Shown here: one piece after another, positions 29,323 through 43,988 of the stretch | Position numbering within the stretch: position 1 is the first letter of the stretch | Layout of the letters: every line of letters begins with the position of its first letter | Assembly (NCBI GenBank): GCA_016841625.1 | Contig: JAENYU010000003.1 | Span: 1-64,000 of the forward strand | DNA length: 64,000 bases | Direction of reading: 5' to 3' | Source: Methanobacteriota archaeon | GTDB taxonomy: Archaea > Halobacteriota > Methanosarcinia > Methanosarcinales > Methanosarcinaceae | Position numbers and translations under genes: made by a program | Notes under the pieces: model-generated | Seen by the model: only the letters and a program-made list of their open reading frames with translations | Database searches by the model: none | What the model was told of the DNA's origin: nothing

Positions 29323-30111
29323 TCAGATTTCAGTTATTTCATCAGACATGTCCCGGTAGTAAGCAAAAAGCTCTTTTCCCCAGTTGAGGCCAGAAGGTTC
29401 GAAACACAGGACATCTTCCTTGTAGTCGAAAGTCCCGTCGTGGAAAGGAAGGGTAAGGGAGAGGAAGCGGTCAGTTACTACATGGGAAAGTTCCAAATTT
29501 TCCTTGCAGACGTAAAAGTGTGAAGTTTCCAAATCAAGAAATGCACTCAACTCGGCCCGGTAATCCTCCCTGATTCTATCAAAGACAGGCTCTGTTACAA
29601 GGATTGAAGCCTTCATCCCACTTTTTGCAAAATTGAGAAAAAGAGTCGGATAGAGGGGATGAAAAATGGAAGCTGTACCCCATAGGCAGCTTGACGTGGC
29701 AATGTTTTCCACAAACTCTCTGTGAGGCTCAAAAAGATGAGCTCTGTCGGGAGGTTCTGAGAAGGTACAGTTCCCCAGCTCATCAATCCTTTTTAGGAGA
29801 TGGAAAGGTATGCATTCGATTGCATGTCTTGACCAATAATCATAGTTGTTCCCGAAAACACCCAGGACGCCTACCATATCCTCCATTCTTCCGGTTATGG
29901 ACAGCCCAAGAGGAGACAGCCTGTAGATATCGCCTTCCTTGAGGACCAGGTTATTCTCCCTTAACTTTTTAATCTGAGGGAGAATTGCCACTGAACTGAC
30001 ACCTAAAACAGACCTGATATCTTCAATGGTTTTCGGCCCTCCTTTCAAAAAGAGAAGAAGATTTTTTCTTTTCTCGGAGAGAAAGATCAGTTCGAGAAGC
30101 TGTTTCTTCAT
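29323..30111 (-). CDS. Msr-type winged-helix regulator (DUF1724)
   Basis: A 262-residue transcription regulator. The N-terminal winged helix (about 5-70, with KRKNLLLFLKGGPKTIEDI and a wing ending GDIYRLSPLG) is followed by a C-terminal DUF1724-type domain. Methanosarcina methyltransferase-specific regulators (Msr) have this build and control methanol or methylsulfide methyltransferase genes. No methyltransferase of that kind is adjacent here, so the target is unknown. The stop codon lies three bases from the right end of the inverted-repeat element. Confidence 0.82.
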   Translation of the reverse strand: MKKQLLELIFLSEKRKNLLLFLKGGPKTIEDIRSVLGVSSVAILPQIKKLRENNLVLKEGDIYRLSPLGLSITGRMEDMVGVLGVFGNNYDYWSRHAIECIPFHLLKRIDELGNCTFSEPPDRAHLFEPHREFVENIATSSCLWGTASIFHPLYPTLFLNFAKSGMKASILVTEPVFDRIREDYRAELSAFLDLETSHFYVCKENLELSHVVTDRFLSLTLPFHDGTFDYKEDVLCFEPSGLNWGKELFAYYRDMSDEITEI

Positions 30112-32856: not shown

Positions 32857-35800
32857 TTACATTTTCTTTTTCCGCATTCCCAGGTAAATCCCGCCGGCTG
32901 CGACCAGCACGAAGAGGGTTCCTACAATGTCGGCGCCTGAGAAGGACATTCCTCCCTCATCAGATTTTTCGACCGATTCTTTCGTCATCTCGTAACCTTC
33001 CACGTACGGGTCAGCAGCGGATTTCGGAGCTTCAGGTGCAGGTTCGGGAGAATCAACCCCATACCCGGCATCCACAGCTGCCATAGTCTGGTTGCTTCCG
33101 GAAGAGGAAGAAGCAGTTTCTTCCGGGGGGTTGAGCTTTTCTGCAAGGCTTGTTTTGTGCCCGCTGCTGCTGTGCTTTTCAGGTTCATCCTGCTCAAGCT
33201 GCTGTTTTGTAGCCGCTTCGACTGCTTCACTGAAGCCGGGCACCGAGACCACACCTGCAACATAGCTGTTGAGGGTAGGGTTTCCGCAGGTGTGGTGGCA
33301 GCAGGTGACACCGTCATTTACAACGGATTCTGCGTATTCCGCAGCCAGGCTTTTGAGGACTTCATCCGAGGCGTCCCAGTTGCCTTTGAGAGCGGTCTCC
33401 AGCATCCGGGCGGTCATGGCCTGGTAGGCATGCGGGTTGTTATCCTTGAGCCAGTCGCTGAGTTCCTGGTCTGCTACGTAGGTCTGGTACACCTGGTTCC
33501 ACACATCATCACTGATCAGGTCAGGGTTCGTGGCTTCCCAACCCCAGAGGTTTTCAAGGAAGTCTGCCATTTCCCGGGCTCCGGCATAACCGTGTTCCTG
33601 CATGCCTTCGATCCATTTCGGGTTGAAATAGCGAGAGTACATTTCCCTTGTGAGGAACTGTTTCAGAGTTTCAATCTTCTCGTCCCCTCCGACCAGCATG
33701 TTCGTAATGAAAGAGTCAGGGTACTCCCCTCCAGAAACGTAGCTAACTGCAAGATTCAGCCCTCCGAGGTACTGGAAGAAATCGTCGTTGTCCAGGGTCC
33801 CATAGAGGTTTGTGCTCCGGCTGTGTACCGTGGCCTCAACTCCTTCGAGGTTCTTTTCGAAAATATCTCTCAGGTTTTCACCCCAGACGTTTTCTCCGTA
33901 GGCGTTGCACATCCTGCTGATGTAAAGGTCGGCAAGCACGTCGTTGCTGTCCCAGGTATCACTTGCTGAAACTGCATTCGAAAGCCCTGTGCCGTAACTG
34001 CCTTCCGCAGACCCGAAAATCCTGAGCAGTGCAAGGTCCAGTGCCTCACTTTCGTTAAGGGAACTTTCGCTCATAAGGAGTTCCTTGAGAGCATCTGTGT
34101 TTTCCCGGACATAGTTGGGGGAATCATCCTGAGCGTAGGCCACCTTTACAGCCCTGTCCAGAAGGCGCACCTTGTCCGGGTACATGTCCCTGTAGAGACC
34201 GGAAATCTGGATTAGCACATCGACCCTGGGCCTGCCCAGCTCCTCCATGGGAATGGCCTCCACATCAACAACCCTGCCGCTTTTCCACACGGGTTTGACC
34301 CCGAGCAGGTAGAGGATCTCGGCCTCCATGACCCCTTCATGCCTTGTAGTTTCCCCGGCCCAAAGCACGTAAGCTACCTTTCTCGGGTAGGTCCCATGCT
34401 CGGCAACATAGGCTTCAAGCAGCTGGTCAGCCATCTGCTGCCCAAGCGTCCAGGCGGCAGCTGTTGGCACTATCCGCTGGTCAAAAGCATAGAAATTTCT
34501 TCCCGAAGGGAGAGTTTCCGGGTTTCTCACAGGGTCACCCCCCTGGTTTCCGGGGATGAACCTGCCATCCAGAGCATTCAGGACCTGCAGGATTTCCTCT
34601 TCGCCCAGGGCAAGGTTTGCGGCGTATTCTTCCGCACTGCTCAGGAAAGCCCCGACGGTCTCATTATCTGTTCCAAGCACCTGAATTTGGGCATCCGTGG
34701 CATTGACCCCCCGGTTCAGGACCAGATCCAGCAGGTGAAGCTGGGAGCCTTCGGTCTCATTGAATTCGTGAACCGAATCCGTAAAGTCCGTTCCAAGCAT
34801 GGAATTTACCATACCCACAAGCTGGTCCCCTTTCGGGCTCGTGCCCAGGATGTGCAGCCCGTAGGGCATGGACTGAGTTTTGTATTCATCCAGCAGGGCT
34901 TCGAGTTCTTCCAGGAAAACAGCCTCAAAGTAAGTCTCGTTATTTTCAGCCTCTTCCATGTCGAATTCTTCATCCAGGTGCAGGGTCAGGGTAAGGTTGA
35001 GGACTTCAGACCTGTGCGCCATTTTAAGGGAATCATCTGCCCCTGCCTGCTCATAGTTCCGGATAGCTTCACTCAGGTTTGCGTAGTCCCCATAGCTTCC
35101 TGCCGCAATAATAGGGGGAACCAGGTGGTCGACGATGACTGCCCCGCCTCTGCGCTTTGCCTCATTGCCTTCTCCAAGCCCGTCCATGACATAGGGGTAA
35201 ACAACTGGCAGGTCTCCCAGCATCAGGGAAGGCCAGTCGTACCGTGAAAGCCCGAACTGTTTACCCGGCAGCCATTCCTGGGTCCCGTGCCGGCCGAAGT
35301 GAACCAGGGCATCGGAACCGTACCCGCCCTCTTCTTCGGGATGCTGGAGCCAGAGGTAAAAAGCAATGTACTGGTGATGGGGAGGCAAATCCTTGTCATG
35401 ATAAAGGACATCATTGTCCTGAAGCCAGCCCCTGGTGGGCTGGGGAGCCAGGAGCACATTTTCCCCTGCCTCTATCCCTGGGATGACGAGATACTTTCCA
35501 CTCTCATTTTCCCAGACCATGATATTTCCAGGGACCGGGCCCCAGCGGTCAATTACCTCCTGCTGCCTTTCTTCTGGGAGTTCGGAGAACCATGCCTCAT
35601 AGGTTTCTACCGGAAGCAGAGTGACTTTGCCCGTGGCCACCAGCTTGTCCAGTTCTCCGGGAGCCCAGGTCCCGATATTTATTCCCTGGGTCAGCATCAG
35701 ATCTACAAGTTCGGTTTTATTAGGAATCTCACTAACGTTTACGTCATAACCTTCAGAAGCCATAGCTTCGAGAAGACTGCAAAGAGACGGGGCGACATCG

Positions 35801-37077
35801 AGGTAAGATGCCCCGATGTTGTCCTTTCCGCCCCCATGGTTGTAATATATGATTGCGACCTTTTTTTCAGCTTCCGGGATCTTCCCCAGTTGTACCCAGC
35901 CCTCCACACGGTCGATGAGCCAGTCTACCTGGTAGTCTATGGAAACGGGCATCTCGGTCTGGGTCTCAGCATCGATTTCCGTTGCAGCCATGATCACCGG
36001 GTCAATCGCCCCCCAGAGTTCCTGCAAATCGAGCTTCATCATCTTATCCGCGGGGAGGGGATGGCTGCTGGCCTCATATTCGGTCCTGTTCATGTAGTTG
36101 TTAACGATGCCATTGATTACGGGCACATCGAGTTCTTCGGCATCAAACTTGTTGCCGAAATAAGTAAATGAGATGATTGCGTCCACGATGACCTCATCCC
36201 CCTGCTTGAAAAAGTCTCCGGAGTAAAGGGAATCAGACCCGTAAGTGGCTATCACATTGTAGTCCCTTGCTTCCAGTTCAGAGATAAGGGCGTCAATGGG
36301 CTCAATCTGGAAGGGGAAATAGCTCTGGTAAAGGGTAATCGCAACTGTGGGCTTTGCCGGGTCATAGACATGCCCTCCGTCGCTTCTGTTAGAGTACCAG
36401 ACAAGGTAGGTTTCCAGGGAATCAGTGAAGTAACCGCTCATATTCGTATGGTAGATCGCCCTATCCGGAAGCATATGGGGATCTTCAGGCACGAGATCAA
36501 GCCTGCCACTGCAGTTGTAGGCAATGCAGAAAACCAGATTTTTCAGGTTTTCCGGGTCATAAGCCCCGTTAATCCAGTAGTCGTTCAATTTTTCTCTGTA
36601 GTCCTCGATCTGGTCTTCAGGAAGAGGAATGCTCTCGTTCAACAGAGTGTCATCGTCGATAACAACGCAGCCATTTTCAATCGCCGCATCTACTGTTGGA
36701 GTTAGCTTCTGGGCCGTTGCGGGGCTGAGCATATTGATGTAAATAATGTCCATCCCGCTAAGGTCAACATCATGTTCCATTACGTAGTCAGCCATAAAAC
36801 AACTTAGGGTCAGGTTCAGGCTGCTGTTGTTATTGATCTCCTCTGCCAGATTTTTGAGGGGGAGCTCATGGCTCCGGTACCCGGTCACAATGGAGATGTT
36901 CAGGTGCGGGTTTCCATCAGCAGCGCTGACAGTGCTTTCAACCAGTTCATACTCTACACTTTCAGTTGATTCAGCTTGAACTGTCGAGACCAGCATAAAG
37001 AGCAGTAAAAATATCAATCCGAAAACTTTAGCGTATTTTACAGGGTTTTTTACCATCTTATTTCGAATTCTTTCCAT
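32857..37077 (-). CDS. Exported, membrane-anchored CobN-like chelatase
   Basis: A 1406-residue member of the CobN/ChlH/BchH magnesium- and cobalt-chelatase large-subunit family. The core has the family segments, including HFGRHGTQEWLPG near residue 600 followed by GDLPVVYPYVMDGLGEGNEAKRRG. Unlike cytoplasmic CobN it starts with a signal sequence (KVFGLIFLLLFMLVSTVQA, about 17-36). It ends with a low-complexity Ser/Pro/Glu stalk, one membrane helix (near 1378-1398) and KKKM, so the catalytic mass should face outside. GAGGAGA precedes the ATG. Upstream on the same strand are ExbD-like, ExbB-like and DUF2162 genes. No CobS/CobT ATPase partners are present. Confidence 0.88.
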   Translation of the reverse strand: MERIRNKMVKNPVKYAKVFGLIFLLLFMLVSTVQAESTESVEYELVESTVSAADGNPHLNISIVTGYRSHELPLKNLAEEINNNSSLNLTLSCFMADYVMEHDVDLSGMDIIYINMLSPATAQKLTPTVDAAIENGCVVIDDDTLLNESIPLPEDQIEDYREKLNDYWINGAYDPENLKNLVFCIAYNCSGRLDLVPEDPHMLPDRAIYHTNMSGYFTDSLETYLVWYSNRSDGGHVYDPAKPTVAITLYQSYFPFQIEPIDALISELEARDYNVIATYGSDSLYSGDFFKQGDEVIVDAIISFTYFGNKFDAEELDVPVINGIVNNYMNRTEYEASSHPLPADKMMKLDLQELWGAIDPVIMAATEIDAETQTEMPVSIDYQVDWLIDRVEGWVQLGKIPEAEKKVAIIYYNHGGGKDNIGASYLDVAPSLCSLLEAMASEGYDVNVSEIPNKTELVDLMLTQGINIGTWAPGELDKLVATGKVTLLPVETYEAWFSELPEERQQEVIDRWGPVPGNIMVWENESGKYLVIPGIEAGENVLLAPQPTRGWLQDNDVLYHDKDLPPHHQYIAFYLWLQHPEEEGGYGSDALVHFGRHGTQEWLPGKQFGLSRYDWPSLMLGDLPVVYPYVMDGLGEGNEAKRRGGAVIVDHLVPPIIAAGSYGDYANLSEAIRNYEQAGADDSLKMAHRSEVLNLTLTLHLDEEFDMEEAENNETYFEAVFLEELEALLDEYKTQSMPYGLHILGTSPKGDQLVGMVNSMLGTDFTDSVHEFNETEGSQLHLLDLVLNRGVNATDAQIQVLGTDNETVGAFLSSAEEYAANLALGEEEILQVLNALDGRFIPGNQGGDPVRNPETLPSGRNFYAFDQRIVPTAAAWTLGQQMADQLLEAYVAEHGTYPRKVAYVLWAGETTRHEGVMEAEILYLLGVKPVWKSGRVVDVEAIPMEELGRPRVDVLIQISGLYRDMYPDKVRLLDRAVKVAYAQDDSPNYVRENTDALKELLMSESSLNESEALDLALLRIFGSAEGSYGTGLSNAVSASDTWDSNDVLADLYISRMCNAYGENVWGENLRDIFEKNLEGVEATVHSRSTNLYGTLDNDDFFQYLGGLNLAVSYVSGGEYPDSFITNMLVGGDEKIETLKQFLTREMYSRYFNPKWIEGMQEHGYAGAREMADFLENLWGWEATNPDLISDDVWNQVYQTYVADQELSDWLKDNNPHAYQAMTARMLETALKGNWDASDEVLKSLAAEYAESVVNDGVTCCHHTCGNPTLNSYVAGVVSVPGFSEAVEAATKQQLEQDEPEKHSSSGHKTSLAEKLNPPEETASSSSGSNQTMAAVDAGYGVDSPEPAPEAPKSAADPYVEGYEMTKESVEKSDEGGMSFSGADIVGTLFVLVAAGGIYLGMRKKKM

Positions 37078-37126
37078 TGTATCTCCTCGTGAAAAATCGA
37101 ATTATGTAAGCCCTGGATATGTGCCT

Positions 37127-37167
37127 GGAACCCGGGAAGATTTCCTGGCGGGAGTTCGCAGGGTTCC
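37127..37167 (-). promoter_or_regulatory. Inverted repeat in the leader of the CobN-like gene
   Basis: A 7-bp pair (ggaaccc 37127-37133 with gggttcc 37161-37167) encloses smaller internal hairpins, about 50 bases before the CobN-like start. It may be a leader structure. It does not show the consensus boxes of a cobalamin riboswitch. Confidence 0.3.
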
Positions 37168-37314
37168 GGAAACAATTTTCAATTATGCATTCGAATTTCG
37201 TTCCAAATTGCGACAATATAATGTGGCAATATAATTGTGACAGTCCAATTGAGAATTTAGTTCAATTAAAATTGAAATGGAATCAAGTTTACTTGCATAA
37301 TTTTTTTAAAAAAA

Positions 37315-37701
37315 TTAACCCGAAGTTTCGTTCTTTCCGGCCTCTTCCTCACTTTCAGGCACGTAAATTACCCTGCCGTCAGCCAGCCGATACGCTGTCC
37401 CCAGGGCTTCTCCGGTTCCTCCTCCGATGTTGTCGGTCATGTTCAGGACTTCGATTGGACGGCCTTCTTCCTTGATGATGATTTTCATATCCTGCTGCCC
37501 CGGATTCTTCACAATAGTGATATCTTCGTTGGGGTTCAGGAGTTCCGGGAGCTGGTAGGACATTACAAGGGCAACCAGCAGGGCAACCGAGAAGACCATT
37601 GCCACGTCGAAAAGGTTGGCAACCCCGGTAAGGGGGTTCTGGTCCTCAGGGTCTGCCAGAAGGCCAGTCCGGTGGTAGCGTCTTGATTTTGATCTCCTCA
37701 T
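37315..37701 (-). CDS. DUF2149 protein (ExbD-like topology)
   Basis: A 128-residue protein with a short basic cytoplasmic N-terminus, one membrane helix (about 31-50, LFDVAMVFSVALLVALVMSY) and an extracytoplasmic domain. The aspartate at the start of the helix (NLFDVAMVF) is placed like the proton-carrying Asp of ExbD/TolR. It follows the ExbB-like gene by 2 bases. The ExbD analogy is inference from topology, residue placement and neighbourhood. Confidence 0.8.
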   Translation of the reverse strand: MRRSKSRRYHRTGLLADPEDQNPLTGVANLFDVAMVFSVALLVALVMSYQLPELLNPNEDITIVKNPGQQDMKIIIKEEGRPIEVLNMTDNIGGGTGEALGTAYRLADGRVIYVPESEEEAGKNETSG

Positions 37702-37703
37702 CC

Positions 37704-38330
37704 TTACTCCCCTGTTTTTTCTTCGATTGTGTCAAGGATGTAATCGATATCGGACATGTCTTCCCAGTACCAGCGCCTTCTGACCTGAGTCAGGACGTAG
37801 CCGATGATTCCGGCAAAGAGCCCCACAACCGTGGTTGCAAAAGCAATCATGAGGTTGTTTGCAAGGGTGGCAATGTCTCCCTGGGAAAGCCCGATAAGGG
37901 CAGGTCCGAGAGGGATAAGGGTTCCCATGAGCCCGAGCATGGGGGAAATCGTTGCAACAATCTTCGTTTGCTCAAGGCGCTTGGCCATTTTGATTTCATA
38001 GTCCTCGGCAAGCCTTTCGATCGCCGGGAAATTCAGGTCATTCAGGTACTTCGAAGCTTCTCTCGAAAAGGCACTTACCATGTAGTTCTGCTTTATGTTC
38101 TCCAGAACCCCGCTAGCCTCCGAAAAGTTGGAATTCAGGCAGGATTTCCTTAAACCCTTGCACTGAACTTCCAGGGAATCCCTGTCCCTGTGCCGCTTTG
38201 TGTACTCAGAGAGAAATTCCCCGATAAGGATGAGGGAGAAGAGCACAAGGAGCAGGAGGACTATGATTACCGGATAGAGTAGAGCCGAGGAGAAGGTATA
38301 CATTATCTCGAAGATGGGACCTGCACTCAT
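37704..38330 (-). CDS. MotA/TolQ/ExbB proton channel family protein
   Basis: A 208-residue membrane protein of the ExbB/TolQ/MotA family, which forms proton channels driving TonB, Tol or flagella. There is one N-terminal helix (about 15-37), a cytoplasmic stretch, then two helices with the conserved ISPMLGLMGTLIPLGPALIGL segment near residue 125 and NNLMIAFATTVVGLFAGIIGY near 158. It overlaps the DUF2162 gene upstream by 4 bases and is followed directly by the DUF2149 gene. Confidence 0.92.
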   Translation of the reverse strand: MSAGPIFEIMYTFSSALLYPVIIVLLLLVLFSLILIGEFLSEYTKRHRDRDSLEVQCKGLRKSCLNSNFSEASGVLENIKQNYMVSAFSREASKYLNDLNFPAIERLAEDYEIKMAKRLEQTKIVATISPMLGLMGTLIPLGPALIGLSQGDIATLANNLMIAFATTVVGLFAGIIGYVLTQVRRRWYWEDMSDIDYILDTIEEKTGE

Positions 38331-39004
38331 TGTTCAGACCTCACGTGCCCGAGGAAAAACCCTCCTAGAATGATGAGTCCCAGTATCAGGAGGGGAACCA
38401 CTCCTGAACTGCCTCCGTCCATGGGGACCAGGTGCATCTGTTTAGTTTTCATGTAGGCCGGGATCAGCAAAGCCCCGAGGAGGTAATATATCCCGAGGAG
38501 CATCATGAAAGTTCCCAGGGTCTCGGGGGTCTGGCCCATTTTTCTGAAAAGGAAGGAAGAGCCTACAACCGAGATGAAAAAAGCGCTCCCTACAATTAGC
38601 CCTATTTTCAGCCCGCCGATCTCGAGGGTGGAAGCCAGCAGCCCGCAGGACACAGCAAGAGCCACCAGGCAGACAGGGCAGGGCATTGAGATGGCGAGGA
38701 AGGTATGCCTTGAAACATCCTTTCCCGAGTTCCATTTCTTCTGGGTGTAAATCCCGGCTCCTATCAGGAGCAAAGATACTAAAACATGAATACTCATGCC
38801 CATTGAAGAAATTTTTTCAAAACTATCCATGCTTATGTTATCCACAAAACTTCCGAAAATCAGGGCCAAAAAGAAGTAACTGCTTCCGACTGCGAGGATT
38901 TCTCGCGTTTTTAGGTTTGAAAAGCCGCAACCTAATCCAGTTTTAAGCCCGAAGATGAGGATACCTATTAAAATCCCAATTACAGTCAATACAGCAGAGT
39001 CCAT
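38327..39004 (-). CDS. DUF2162 membrane protein (putative metal transporter)
   Basis: A 225-residue protein with about six membrane helices, of the DUF2162 family of predicted transporters. A cysteine pair in a membrane segment (SMPCPVCLVALAVSCG near residue 108) could bind a soft metal. It is the first gene of a tight unit with the ExbB-like and DUF2149 genes and, after a spacer, the CobN-like gene. The cobalt link is by neighbourhood only. Confidence 0.75.
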   Translation of the reverse strand: MDSAVLTVIGILIGILIFGLKTGLGCGFSNLKTREILAVGSSYFFLALIFGSFVDNISMDSFEKISSMGMSIHVLVSLLLIGAGIYTQKKWNSGKDVSRHTFLAISMPCPVCLVALAVSCGLLASTLEIGGLKIGLIVGSAFFISVVGSSFLFRKMGQTPETLGTFMMLLGIYYLLGALLIPAYMKTKQMHLVPMDGGSSGVVPLLILGLIILGGFFLGHVRSEQ

Positions 39005-39449
39005 GTTATCTCTCAGTCCATTTAGAATTTAATTAAATAAAAACTGGTTTTTGGGTAACGAGTATTATCCAGAAGGCTAACAAGCAGGAAGCTGAAATCG
39101 ATTTTTGGAGAAGAGAAAGATTAGGAGGAACTTCTGACCTTAGCTCAATAACTAGAAAATTAAAAAAATATCGTCATTAGACATTAAAGAATTATTATAA
39201 GCAGCAATTAAAAAAATAATCAGGGGAGGCAATAATAAATATTGATTGAATTTTAATATTAATTATGCGCAAATTAACTCCGTTAACATTTGAGATCTGA
39301 TTTGAAGTGGAGGAATGAAGAAGATGAAATTCAAGTAAATTTGTTTAATCATGACTGGAAAAAAGTGACTATAAGAGGGCATATAAGTATTTACTTGTAT
39401 ATCTAGATAGCAATAATTATAAGTAATGGAGTTTGAATAGAGATACATT
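39005..39449. other. Divergent promoter region of the CobN-like cluster and its regulator
   Basis: About 445 AT-rich bases between two divergent units. On the minus strand, tttttatttaatt-type sequence near 39030-39045 could be the TATA box for the DUF2162 gene. On the plus strand, an AT-rich box near 39412-39424 precedes the regulator. No cobalamin-riboswitch consensus is seen. Confidence 0.4.
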
Positions 39450-39995
39450 ATGGTAGTAAATGTTATGAAGAATACGGGAATCAACGGAGGGGGAGAGAAA
39501 CTCTTCAAAGCAATATCAAGCGACACCCGTCTCTCCATCCTGGAACTCCTGAGTGAAGAGGACATCCACATCTCAGGCCTGGCCAGAGAACTGGGGATCT
39601 CCGTACCCGTGGCTGCCAAACACGTAAAAGTCCTGGAGGAAGCCGAACTGGTCAAGAGAAAAAAGTTAGGGAACCTCCATATGATAGGAATCAGAATCAG
39701 CAACGTATATTCATTTCTGGACCACTTTGCGGAAAACCGGAACGTGGAAGTTGAAAAAGGCACAACCCTTCTTGAAGCCCTGAAAAGCGTTGCCGCCTTG
39801 GAGGTAACAAAGATGGGAAACAGGATCAAAGTCGTTTCCACGGACGGAGAGGAAGGCTTTTACGTTTATGAAGTGGACGGAAAATTTTCGGACAAGACCG
39901 TGGATGAATATACTTTCGAAGAAGACGCAGTCGTGGAGTGGAAAAAACTTATCCCGGTCACGAAAAAGAGACTGTTTGTGAACGTCAAGAGCTGA
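39450..39995 (+). CDS. ArsR-like regulator with a transcobalamin-like (DUF4430-like) C-terminus
   Basis: A 181-residue protein. Residues about 15-80 form an ArsR-type winged helix (LFKAISSDTRLSILELLSE, then ISGLARELGISVPVAAKHVK). The C-terminal part has GFYVYEVDGKFSDKTVDEYTF followed by EEDAVVEWKKL. This fits the DUF4430 pattern of a short YxVNGK strand, then a DGDVVEW strand, a domain related to the C-terminus of transcobalamin. It is divergent from the CobN-like cluster, so a cobamide- or cobalt-sensing repressor of that cluster is a reasonable inference. The second ATG at 39465 is an alternative start. Confidence 0.7.
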   Translation: MVVNVMKNTGINGGGEKLFKAISSDTRLSILELLSEEDIHISGLARELGISVPVAAKHVKVLEEAELVKRKKLGNLHMIGIRISNVYSFLDHFAENRNVEVEKGTTLLEALKSVAALEVTKMGNRIKVVSTDGEEGFYVYEVDGKFSDKTVDEYTFEEDAVVEWKKLIPVTKKRLFVNVKS

Positions 39996-40796: not shown

Positions 40797-41819
40797 TTAC
40801 TGCCTCCTCTTTTTCTTTCCTTTTGGCTTTGATTTCATCCCATCACCCTGCTTTTTTTGAGGGGGCTCCGGATTCATAGCCCTGATCTGCTGCACCTTTG
40901 CGTCCAGTTTTTCTGCGAGGGAAGGGACTTTTTCCCCGGAGTAAAGGTCCATTCTCGCAGCCAGGGCGAGCTTTGCCGCAACGGCTCTTGAGATTTTACC
41001 CCGCTGCCACCAGGGAGCGGTATTGATCATGGGGTGGCTGTAAATTATACCGTGTTTCGGGGAGGGAGCCCTGGACCTGAGGTGTTTGAAAAGGGCTTTG
41101 TTAGCCCCTATTACCTGGATCGTACTGGAGGGGAAAGCGGCAAGCTTTTTCAGGCTACCTGCGATACTGATAAGCCTTGCCCCGAGCATGGGGCCTGCAA
41201 GCAGGCTCAGGTTGGGAGCTATGTTTTCCATACTGGATTCGATATACGCCTCGATCTGTTTCCGCCGGTCGTAGAGGCTGCATACGCTTGTGGCAAACCC
41301 TTTGATAAGGGCTTCATCAAGGGTTTCGAGTTCTGCACCCATTGAATCCGCAGCTTTTGCGGAAAGGGGATTTTCAGGGTCGACATTTTTCCTGGAACCG
41401 TATTTTGCGACAAACAGGGCCAGGGCTTCCCCGCTCAAACCACTTTCAGGGAAATAGCCCCCGTACCACTCGGAAAGCCTTTCCGAAAGGACGTTTACAG
41501 TTTCATTTATATCATCCAGGGCTTCCACTGCAAGGATTATGCGCTGGTCAGGCGTAATTGCCCCCGAGACCTGCAGCTTTGCAGCCTCCAGGGTTACTTC
41601 GTGTAAGAGGAAATCATACTCTTCCGGAGATTCGACAAACCCACAGGCAAGAGCAGCGGACCTGAGTTCAAAGCCTGCGGGGGGAATTCCTTTACCCGGT
41701 TCCCTCAGGGAAAGAGAACGAAGCGCAAGCTCCCTGACATTTTTTGAAAAAAGATCGGATGCCAGGACTTTCCCGTCTTCGCAAAGATCAAGAGTTCCGA
41801 ACCAGGCCTCAAGTTTCAA
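40797..41819 (-). CDS. Nop5/Nop56/Nop58 homologue (box C/D RNP core protein)
   Basis: A 340-residue scaffold protein that bridges L7Ae-bound C/D guide RNA and fibrillarin. The NOP domain is recognisable (SLLAGPMLGARLISIAGSL near residue 205; the segment from GANKALFKHLRSRAPSPKHG to IIYSHPMIN near 240), preceded by a coiled-coil region. The C-terminus is Lys/Arg-rich (KKKRRQ). It overlaps the beta-RFAP synthase gene upstream by 4 bases and abuts the fibrillarin gene. Confidence 0.95.
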   Translation of the reverse strand: MKLEAWFGTLDLCEDGKVLASDLFSKNVRELALRSLSLREPGKGIPPAGFELRSAALACGFVESPEEYDFLLHEVTLEAAKLQVSGAITPDQRIILAVEALDDINETVNVLSERLSEWYGGYFPESGLSGEALALFVAKYGSRKNVDPENPLSAKAADSMGAELETLDEALIKGFATSVCSLYDRRKQIEAYIESSMENIAPNLSLLAGPMLGARLISIAGSLKKLAAFPSSTIQVIGANKALFKHLRSRAPSPKHGIIYSHPMINTAPWWQRGKISRAVAAKLALAARMDLYSGEKVPSLAEKLDAKVQQIRAMNPEPPQKKQGDGMKSKPKGKKKRRQ

Positions 41820-42781
41820 AAAAGCCCTCCGGAGATCTCCGCACCCCTGTTCCTAGCTTTCGTGAGCAGAGCTTCTCCGCCAAGGGACTCGTCAAGCATC
41901 TGCTGGACTTCCTTCCGGATATTTTCACCTTCGCTCATGCTCCCTGCAATCCCGTAGACCACAGGCCCAAAAGAGCTGACTCCGGCCCCGCTTGCCCCGT
42001 TATCCCGCATGAACTGCACGATGTCAAGCACGGAGGGGGGCTGGAGGTCGACCTCCCGCTTTTTGAAGCCCACGGTCTGGAGATGATTGACCGCTTTTCC
42101 GAAGCTCTCCAGGTCTTCTTCCATAAGTGCCGGAAGCATCTGCATGAGGACTACATGGGACACTTCCTGGACTTCCGGCAGGGGAATGGGACAGACTTTT
42201 TTGAAAATATCCACCTCTTCCACGTCATGAGCTCCCTGGGTGTCCGCAATTGCAATGACAATAGGCCAGTCCGGGAAATCCTTCCTGAAAAGCACGGGAC
42301 CGGGAGGGACACGGCTGGCTGCTGAAGGGGAAAAAGCACTCTTTTCCTCAAATTTGTGTCCCCCGTCCAGGATGAAACCGCCCATTTCAAAGGCTGCGAC
42401 CCCGATTCCCGATGTTCCGCCTCTCCCGACAGCAACTGCAAGTTCCCGGATACTTTTTCCAAGCCCGTAGACTTCATTTACAGCAGCTGCACCCGTGAGT
42501 GCGGCCTGGGTCCCGGAGCCGAGTCCTACATGGTCAGGGATGTCCGCTTCGATACGGAGGCTTATCCCTTCCCCTTCAGGGAGTACGGCTTTGGCTGCTT
42601 TTAACACCCGGTCCGCAAGCACGGAATCTCCAAGAATTTCCACACAATCTGCCTTTTGTGCAGAGATTGACATGCCCGGAGCTCCGAGGGTTATTCCCAC
42701 ACCCCCATCGACCCTGCCAAGCTCGGCATTCATGTCGATAAGGCCCAGGTGCAGCCTGGATGGAGACGTAATCTTAATCAT
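41816..42781 (-). CDS. Beta-ribofuranosylaminobenzene 5'-phosphate synthase, copy 2
   Basis: A 321-residue GHMP-kinase-fold enzyme that condenses PRPP with p-hydroxybenzoate or p-aminobenzoate in the first committed step of methanopterin synthesis. The N-terminal SPSRLHLGLIDMNAELGRVDGG and the glycine-rich HVGLGSGTQAAL loop (near residue 95) are present, as is RGGTSGIGVAAFEMGG near 125. It is a close paralogue of the gene at 43032-43988. It overlaps the Nop5 gene by 4 bases, tying methanopterin synthesis to RNA modification in one transcript. Confidence 0.9.
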   Translation of the reverse strand: MIKITSPSRLHLGLIDMNAELGRVDGGVGITLGAPGMSISAQKADCVEILGDSVLADRVLKAAKAVLPEGEGISLRIEADIPDHVGLGSGTQAALTGAAAVNEVYGLGKSIRELAVAVGRGGTSGIGVAAFEMGGFILDGGHKFEEKSAFSPSAASRVPPGPVLFRKDFPDWPIVIAIADTQGAHDVEEVDIFKKVCPIPLPEVQEVSHVVLMQMLPALMEEDLESFGKAVNHLQTVGFKKREVDLQPPSVLDIVQFMRDNGASGAGVSSFGPVVYGIAGSMSEGENIRKEVQQMLDESLGGEALLTKARNRGAEISGGLF

Positions 42782-43031: not shown

Positions 43032-43988
43032 TCAGGACGAGATATCCGCACCTTTATTCCTGGCTTTCGTCAAAAGTACAGTTCCGCCTACTGACTCATC
43101 GAGCATCCTCTGGACCTCGTTCCTGACCTGGGCCGCCTCACGAGAGTTGTCAACAAGGCCGTAGACAAGAGGCCCAAAAGAACTCATGCCCGCCCCATAG
43201 CAGCCGGTATCCCGCATAAAAGCCATGACATCCTGCGCAGCCGGCTGGAGGTCGACCTCTAGCTTTTTGAAGCCTACGGTCTGGACATGATTGACTGCGG
43301 CCCCGAAAGTCTCAGGGTCCTCTTCAAGGAGAGCCGGCAGCATCTGCATAAGGATCACGTGCGAAACCTCCCGCACCTCGGAAAGCGGGATCGGGCAGGT
43401 CGTATTGAAGACATTGATCTCCTTATCGTCATGAACCCCCTGGCCGTTGGGAATTGCAACAACAATCGGCCAGTCCGGGAAAGCGTGTCTTGAGAGCAAA
43501 AGGCCCGGAGGTATCCCCTTCACATCGTGTGAAAAGGTTTTTTTATCCCTGAACCTGTGTCCACCGTCCAGCAGGAAGCCGCCCATTTCAAAGGCTGCGA
43601 CCCCGATCCCTGAAGTGGTCCCCCGGTTTGCGGCAATGGCAATTTCCGTTACGGATTTTCCAAGCCCGTAAAGTTCGTTTACGGCCGTACCCGCAGAAAG
43701 CGCTGCCTGGGTACCCGAACCAAACCCTACGTGATGAGGATAATCTGCTTCGACCCGGATGCGTATGCCTTCACCCTCGGGAAGCAGGGCAAGGACTGAA
43801 CTTCGGATTTTTTCCGCAAGGTCGGACTCGCCTAGCACCTCAACGGAATCCGCTTTCTCTGCAGAAAGCTTGAGAACAGGGGAATCGAGAGTAATCCCCA
43901 CCCCTCCATCAACCCTACCAATCTCCGCATTCAGATCAATAAGGGTCAGATGAAGTCTGGATGGAGATACTATTCTAATCGTATCCAT
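43032..43988 (-). CDS. Beta-ribofuranosylaminobenzene 5'-phosphate synthase, copy 1
   Basis: A 318-residue paralogue of the preceding enzyme, with SPSRLHLTLIDLNAEIGRVDGG at the N-terminus, HVGFGSGTQAAL near residue 95 and RGTTSGIGVAAFEMGGF near 125. Both copies keep the glycine loop, so neither looks degenerate. It is first in the run of same-strand genes leading to Nop5 and fibrillarin, though a 250-base repeat-bearing spacer separates it from copy 2. Confidence 0.9.
   Translation of the reverse strand: MDTIRIVSPSRLHLTLIDLNAEIGRVDGGVGITLDSPVLKLSAEKADSVEVLGESDLAEKIRSSVLALLPEGEGIRIRVEADYPHHVGFGSGTQAALSAGTAVNELYGLGKSVTEIAIAANRGTTSGIGVAAFEMGGFLLDGGHRFRDKKTFSHDVKGIPPGLLLSRHAFPDWPIVVAIPNGQGVHDDKEINVFNTTCPIPLSEVREVSHVILMQMLPALLEEDPETFGAAVNHVQTVGFKKLEVDLQPAAQDVMAFMRDTGCYGAGMSSFGPLVYGLVDNSREAAQVRNEVQRMLDESVGGTVLLTKARNKGADISS

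Follow-up and report, generated by a model that had tools for sequence, protein, structure and literature searches.

We report that four neighbouring genes of a Methanosarcina-like genome, encoding a CobN-like protein, a DUF2149 protein, an ExbB-type channel and a DUF2162 protein, belong to a real and conserved system, a variant of the exported chelatase with a motor typified by HmuS, the NADH-dependent heme de-chelatase of Bacteroides (Bacteroidota hmu system, EMBO J 2025, PMC12583661; BtuS1/2, PMC6460266). The genes lie in a 64,000-nt stretch of DNA (hereafter the window), on which all positions are numbered (Table 1). What is new here is that ANME-1 and Syntrophoarchaea-like archaea carry this module in operon with cbiMNQO and cbiT/L/F, pointing to cobalt. 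We propose that together the four gene products handle metal outside the cytoplasm in the manner of HmuS, but in the service of cobalt, a reading to which we give an even chance.

Results

The CobN-like protein and its gene neighbourhood

An earlier note, made from the sequence of the window alone, had described the four genes, and all of them were confirmed at their coordinates and spacing. Specifically, DUF2162 and ExbB overlap by 4 bases, a gap of 2 bases separates ExbB from DUF2149, and 237 bases lie between DUF2149 and the CobN-like gene. The PF02514 domain spans residues 166-1240 of the CobN-like protein and profile positions 2-1089 of 1090, and is thus the full-length superfamily domain. 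Both the signal peptide and the C-terminal anchor that the note had claimed are present by hydropathy and sequence, the hydrophobic region of the N-terminus covering residues 12-38 and ending VQA/ES. This sequence evidence indicates a protein that is exported and held by its C-terminal helix.

The lack of a CobS/CobT partner also held genome-wide, as no CobS/CobT or ChlI/ChlD protein scored above cut-off (best 27.8 bits vs 779). The family name CobN, together with the cob/cbi neighbours found in relatives, could suggest a true late cobaltochelatase for cobalamin synthesis. We regard this as close to negligible in probability, given the export of the protein, the absence of CobS/CobT and the presence of early chelatases: the source genome has CbiM and two CbiX-type early chelatases, so that late cytoplasmic insertion is unneeded.

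Table 1. Positions of the module genes, their key residues and the associated regulatory features in the window
Feature	Position	Strand	Evidence
Exported CobN-like class I chelatase homologue, 1406 aa	32857..37077	-	PF02514 1123 bits; best PDB match HmuS 9d26, E 3e-148
Signal-peptide-like N-terminus, residues 1-35, ends VQA	36973..37077	-	hydropathy and sequence
H597 of HFGRHG, equivalent of HmuS catalytic His-538	35287..35289	-	alignment with 9d26 and family alignment
D1099...Q1102 in LDNDDFFQYLGG, CobN-type residues where HmuS has H1209/E1212	33772..33783	-	family alignment
VEGYEM, juxtamembrane GxxM motif of common C-terminal tail	32986..33003	-	tail hidden Markov model and whole-genome search
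C-terminal membrane anchor (about residues 1379-1402), then RKKKM	32875..32943	-	hydropathy
DUF2149 protein, in ExbD position beside ExbB channel	37315..37701	-	PF09919 6e-35
D32, invariant transmembrane aspartate of DUF2149, ExbD/TolR/MotB-type ion site by analogy	37606..37608	-	family alignment and sequence
ExbB/TolQ/MotA-type channel, 208 aa	37704..38330	-	PF01618 1.5e-12
DUF2162 predicted transporter, invariant PCPVC motif	38327..39004	-	PF09930 1.1e-68; family alignment
Palindrome GGGTAACGAGTATTATCC, candidate operator	39053..39070	.	sole site of pattern in genome; kept in 8 related intergenic regions
ArsR/SmtB-type regulator, divergent from module	39450..39995	+	PF01022/PF12840
Regulator C-terminal domain, DUF4430-like	39759..39944	+	PF14478 22.0 bits, below cut-off of 23.8

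Conservation of the gene set

The gene set was surveyed in 296 genomes of the phylum using profile cut-offs, with overlaps counted by hand from the tables; the counts refer to related genomes and not to independent events. DUF2162 was found above cut-off in 82 genomes and DUF2149 in 85, and a CobN homologue accompanied DUF2149 in all 85, compared with 91 of the 211 remaining genomes. Within the family of the window, DUF2162, DUF2149 and CobN occur together in 51 genomes and all three are missing from five, with no mixed case.

A scan of contigs gave 80 named loci, with DUF2149 recognised in 78, and within 8 kb we found ExbB in 74, DUF2162 in 60 and CobN in 47. Of the 47 loci flanked on each side by 5 kb or more, 38 have CobN within 8 kb of DUF2149. 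In most loci, moreover, DUF2162 either overlaps ExbB or comes very close to it. The module ranges over Methanosarcinaceae, Methanothrix relatives, Methanomicrobiales, ANME-1/2/3, Syntrophoarchaea-like lineages and Planctomycetota. In conclusion, the co-occurrence of CobN and motor is not due to chance, and the strong conservation of the four-gene set across archaea excludes the possibility, considered in the earlier note, that these genes do not occur together elsewhere.

A second complete module (CobN, DUF2162, ExbB and DUF2149, on one strand) is present on contig C8 of the source genome, and its CobN shares 38% identity with that of the window. Close to the N-terminus of this second CobN (G000:C8, about 20 kb; L002:5670-6074) there is a low-complexity (ENV)n tract, accompanied by an assembly gap. 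Elsewhere, at L074 (G273:C2) and L041 (G194:C1), CobN genes in pieces were found beside apparently intact motor genes.

Relationship to HmuS

By sequence comparison, HmuS is the closest characterised relative of the CobN-like protein. The hmuYRSTUV operon encodes the CobN-like HmuS, HmuT, the ExbB-like HmuU and the DUF2149 protein HmuV (PMC10434189, PMC13227078), a gene content that we confirmed on Prevotella and Bacteroides plasmids. The window module has counterparts of HmuU and HmuV, and its CobN-ExbB-DUF2149 core corresponds to the S-U-V part of the bacterial operon; therefore, the set is not unique to archaea. Both systems pair ExbB and DUF2149 with an exported class I homologue that has an N-terminal signal or transmembrane segment, a C-terminal transmembrane helix and no AAA+ partner. 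The His of HFGxHG, common to the entire superfamily, is kept in both proteins, and Prevotella HmuS has a similar GxxM-like tail. The two systems differ in accessory genes, in heme-ligand and active-site residues, in the Met-rich insertion and in the cobalt and cobalamin operon context seen in archaeal relatives. The window contains neither HmuY nor the TonB-dependent receptor HmuR among its recognised neighbours, DUF2162 takes the place of HmuT, and an ArsR-type sensor is present.

Concerning the residues, the HmuS motif LSLDHxxEFMGG, with His-1209 and Glu-1212, is replaced by LDNDDFFQYLGG in the window protein. The axial heme ligand His-254 aligns with Y306 and the ligand Met-79 with L117, although the adjacent M116 might serve instead. 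The Met-rich insertion (domain IV) is missing, with 57 residues against 226 in HmuS between the aligned parts. Judged by these residues, the window protein is not an HmuS.

A phylogeny of 93 sequences (FastTree on a trimmed MAFFT alignment, midpoint root, only nine of the sequences being cytoplasmic) separated the exported motor-linked CobN proteins, namely the archaeal, HmuS, proteobacterial and planctomycete members, from cytoplasmic CobN/BchH with support 0.958. HmuS was not sister to the archaeal exported CobN proteins.

These data bear on the possibility that the system is an archaeal HmuS stripping iron from heme. Such a role is suggested by the best PDB match, by a gene set equal to hmuS-U-V and by two CobN-like proteins of M. 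barkeri that increase in media with Fe(II)/Cys and FeS2, an effect that the authors ascribed to salvage of iron from heme, noting that the entire operon is absent (PMC10846266). We nevertheless consider it distinctly unlikely, since the ligands Met79/His254, the pair His1209/Glu1212 and the Met-rich insertion are absent, DUF2162 is unrelated to HmuT by profile, the tree does not join the archaeal members with HmuS, and the operon links are with cobalt and cobalamin genes.

A tail-bearing subfamily of exported CobN proteins shows FSIFSN or FTIFSS aligned at the catalytic HFGxHG (L138, L142, L053, L054, L104, L119, L157, L088:3059-7651 and others). In Methanoculleus (L138, L142) the motor-adjacent CobN belongs to this subfamily without the catalytic His, whose members, judged from these motifs, are possibly non-catalytic binders.

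Metal context of the module

The operons of relatives bear out the cobalt and corrinoid context put forward in the earlier note. In L166, cbiM-cbiN-cbiQ-cbiO is followed by DUF2162 (with a 4-base overlap), ExbB, DUF2149 and CobN. L163 carries the module, CobN, cbiM-N-Q-O, cbiT, cbiL and cbiF, while in L159 and L145 cbiT-cbiL-cbiF or cbiT-cbiL lie directly after CobN. L164 shows CobN, a cbiT fragment, CobB, CobQ, cbiT, cbiL and cbiF. NCBIfam models matched above cut-off for CbiM, CbiQ, CbiL, CbiF, CbiT, CobB and CobQ in the proteins tested; CbiN was assigned by its position and the look of its sequence only. At L055:11622-12362, between CbiO and DUF2162, a membrane protein with an HTIVPDH motif gave weak DsbD_2/MntP matches and is possibly another metal transporter. 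No B12 riboswitch was found in the window (Rfam; only two tRNAs were detected).

Among bacteria, the Trichlorobacter (Geobacter) lovleyi plasmid pSZ77 (PMC3403914) carries TBDR-DUF2162-ExbB-DUF2149-CobN (TBDR, TonB-dependent receptor), with the four genes in the order of the window and a VEGFEM tail, and its module sits between cobalamin clusters; this diderm host, unlike that of the window, has TonB receptors and, apart from the module, a TonB-ExbB-ExbD set. The CobN-like protein of P. aeruginosa PA1922-PA1925 is likewise encoded in an operon with a TonB receptor and induced by lack of metal, but here the regulation is by Zur and zinc (PMC8531726, PMC11761036). The Runella module lies within hyp genes and that of Azospirillum adjoins nikR. 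Both of these placements would fit nickel acquisition instead of cobalt, as would the CobN1 of a nickel-limited hydrogenotrophic methanogen, which appears only under nickel limitation (PMC12350162). The operon partners in archaea are, however, CbiMNQO and cobalamin biosynthesis genes, and we hold a nickel role to be very unlikely. All together, members of the class appear to acquire metals that differ from case to case, and for the archaeal branch cobalt is the most fitting choice. Nothing usable was found in the literature on cobalt limitation in Methanosarcina.

The ExbB/DUF2149 motor and DUF2162

The ExbB profile matches TolQ/ExbB structures in the PDB (E 1e-4 to 5e-3), and the channel keeps the conserved transmembrane threonines, with T137 invariant. 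In DUF2149, D32 is invariant in 39 archaeal and planctomycete sequences and near-invariant once bacteria are included; by analogy, this residue of the sole transmembrane helix is the predicted ion-carrying Asp. DUF2149 gave no profile match to ExbD and no PDB match in profile searches, a PDB sequence search with the DUF2149 and DUF2162 profiles gave no meaningful match, and all Foldseek matches of the two proteins were insignificant; we therefore claim neither an ExbD fold nor a transporter fold class. Accordingly, of the 'ExbD-like' description proposed earlier, the gene order, the helix with its invariant Asp and the ExbB partner stand, while a profile or fold match to ExbD was not obtained. 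DUF2162 was also tried as a HmuT homologue and rejected (hhalign probability 2%).

As is well established, archaea that carry the module lack an outer membrane. In Trichlorobacter the separate ExbB-ExbD-TonB set lies directly after the DUF2149/ExbB module, so that the DUF2149 motor is unlikely to energise the receptor. Most simply, the motor would act on the exported chelatase, replacing the AAA+ ring of cytoplasmic CobN/ChlH. It could instead power DUF2162 transport only, with CobN as a passive neighbour, and the overlap or near-contact of DUF2162 and ExbB in most loci would agree with this. Such an arrangement appears very doubtful, because bacterial and planctomycete modules retain CobN-ExbB-DUF2149 without DUF2162, and ExbB-DUF2149 pairs without DUF2162 adjoin tail-bearing surface proteins (L070, L071, L077, L170).

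The C-terminal tail and candidate clients

Exported CobN proteins share a tail in the order [VI]xGxx[ML], a linker of about 10-20 residues, a transmembrane helix and basic residues. The motif was present in 68 of 70 exported CobN proteins and in 8 of 31 other anchored neighbours (p 6e-14), and three of these eight are candidate clients near a module (L070, L077, L091). The claim of clients other than CobN rests on tail-profile matches only: the hidden Markov model (HMM) of the CobN tail matched a motor-adjacent Peripla_BP_2 binding protein in L071 (3.6e-5), a motor-adjacent NosD-type protein in L058 (1.7e-4), with a homologue in L091, and a motor-adjacent 333-aa protein in L077 (8e-4); the giant CARDB/PQQ proteins of L070 and L066 matched more weakly. 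A similar tail in L170 was judged by eye. When 14 genomes were searched with the tail HMM, nearly all matches with E <0.01 were CobN-like or module-adjacent, and the two exceptions lacked GxxM.

In two loci, ExbB-DUF2149 pairs without CobN directly follow the giant CARDB and PQQ surface proteins (L070:2136-8036, L066:462-8444), and in L170 a 957-aa protein with the similar tail lies upstream of ExbB in a pair that also lacks CobN. The tails of the surface proteins in L070, L066 and L170 show GYPM or GYPF, then a glycine-rich linker and a transmembrane helix. Four paralogous anchored surface proteins of 200-240 aa on a 9.6-kb contig, G000:C5 (L087; 504-1127, 5051-5695, 5911-6633 and 6840-7445), gave weak tail-HMM matches without the GxxM motif.

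In a genome of the same genus (G135, contig C1, about 3.853-3.892 Mb; L038 and L088), five tandem CobN-like genes lie behind a single DUF2162-ExbB-DUF2149 module. Their active-site motifs differ, and the arrangement suggests one motor with several chelatase-like clients.

Regulator and candidate operator

The dedicated sensor named in the earlier note is tied to the module well beyond the window. Specifically, Methanosarcina, ANME-3 and Ethanoperedens have an ArsR-type regulator gene transcribed away from DUF2162, and in a genome of family f8 the regulator gene lies ahead of DUF2162 and on its strand. The C-terminal domain of the window regulator is similar to a secreted protein with a triple DUF4430 repeat (phmmer 1.6e-8), and such proteins occur near modules in Methanothrix relatives. 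Secreted DUF4430 proteins similar to this domain score above the PF14478 cut-off. DUF4430 may resemble the beta domain of transcobalamin.

The occurrence of DUF4430-like domains both in the regulator and in secreted proteins encoded close to modules is one reason to consider corrinoid capture without metal removal, in which CobN-like binders would be opened or emptied by the motor and whole corrinoids imported. The tail-bearing Peripla_BP_2 protein adjoining the motor in L071, the motor-adjacent subfamily without the catalytic His in Methanoculleus and the tandem CobN paralogues of one genome are consistent with it. We judge this unlikely for the window system, whose protein retains the catalytic His and the CobN-type active-site residues; moreover, BtuCD genes were not recognised in the operons of recognised function, and the transporters there are for cobalt ions and not for corrinoids.

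Other features of the window

Two adjacent, similar GHMP-kinase-like genes (41816-42781 and 43032-43988; SPSRLHL...GRVDGGVGITL) apparently represent a tandem duplication, and a protein with a FilR1_middle domain (PF08350), of a methanogenesis-regulator family, is encoded at 29323-30111. A bacterial promoter and terminator scan gave counts inside the shuffle range and is uninformative for archaea.

Discussion

Starting from these data, the preferred reading can be set out as a mechanism. The CobN-like protein would bind a cobalt-containing ligand, probably a corrinoid or a related tetrapyrrole, and most likely release the metal. ExbB and DUF2149 would form, in the membrane that also anchors the chelatase, an ion-driven stator pushing it via its GxxM juxtamembrane tail, and would replace the ATP-driven CobS/CobT or ChlI/ChlD motor, which is out of reach for a protein outside the cell. 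DUF2162 would import the metal for corrinoid synthesis, as may the CbiMNQO transporter that relatives are observed to encode in the same operon. The regulator would sense the same ligand, or its lack, through its DUF4430-like domain and control the promoter at the candidate site 39053-39070. For the window copy we infer the substrate, the de-metallation, the motor coupling, the transport by DUF2162 and the ligand sensing.

Compared with the CobNST cobaltochelatase and the ChlHID Mg-chelatase, the large subunit is homologous and has CobN-type active-site residues, but those enzymes are cytoplasmic, are driven by ATP through AAA+ partners and work in the biosynthetic direction. The TonB-ExbB-ExbD and Tol stators likewise combine an ExbB homologue with a small transmembrane partner bearing an essential-type Asp; DUF2149 is, in contrast, a separate family, and the module has no TonB/TolA and no outer membrane to act on. 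The external metal machine suggested in the earlier note agrees with the export, the missing AAA+ partner, the conserved set, the sensor and the cobalt context, but that note overlooked that the core is common to the bacterial hmu operon.

Several points weigh against the cobalt machine. No cob/cbi gene adjoins the module in the window, and its link to cobalt is drawn from loci of other families. Among bacterial relatives the metal served is iron for HmuS, probably zinc for PA1922-1925 and perhaps nickel in others, so paralogues may differ in metal. The two M. barkeri CobN-like proteins respond to the source of iron and sulfur. The tail-bearing subfamily without the catalytic His motif means that chelatase activity cannot extend to every member. 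The AlphaFold model of DUF2149 reached a predicted local distance difference test score of 61 and does not establish an ExbD fold. Finally, the motif adjacency test for non-CobN clients was not significant (3/8 vs 8/31, p 0.66), so that the tail as a general client tag of the motor is suggestive only.

In broader terms, a class I chelatase may have swapped its AAA+ engine for an ion-gradient ExbB/DUF2149 stator acting via the C-terminal GxxM tail to power extracytoplasmic tetrapyrrole (de)metallation, the stator also driving other tail-bearing surface proteins in single-membrane archaea. We advance this tentatively, at somewhat less than an even chance. If true, HmuU/HmuV of Bacteroidota would power HmuS itself and not the outer-membrane receptor. 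The HmuS structure paper described the roles of archaeal HmuS/CobN homologues as unclear and complete hmu operons as lacking (PMC12583661); many archaea do carry the chelatase-motor core, which is widespread in Methanosarcina. This core gains a testable cobalt role in organisms with corrinoid-dependent metabolism. In addition, the data suggest that ExbB-type motors perform mechanical work in cells that lack an outer membrane, and suggest a new likely job for HmuU/HmuV of gut and oral Bacteroidota.

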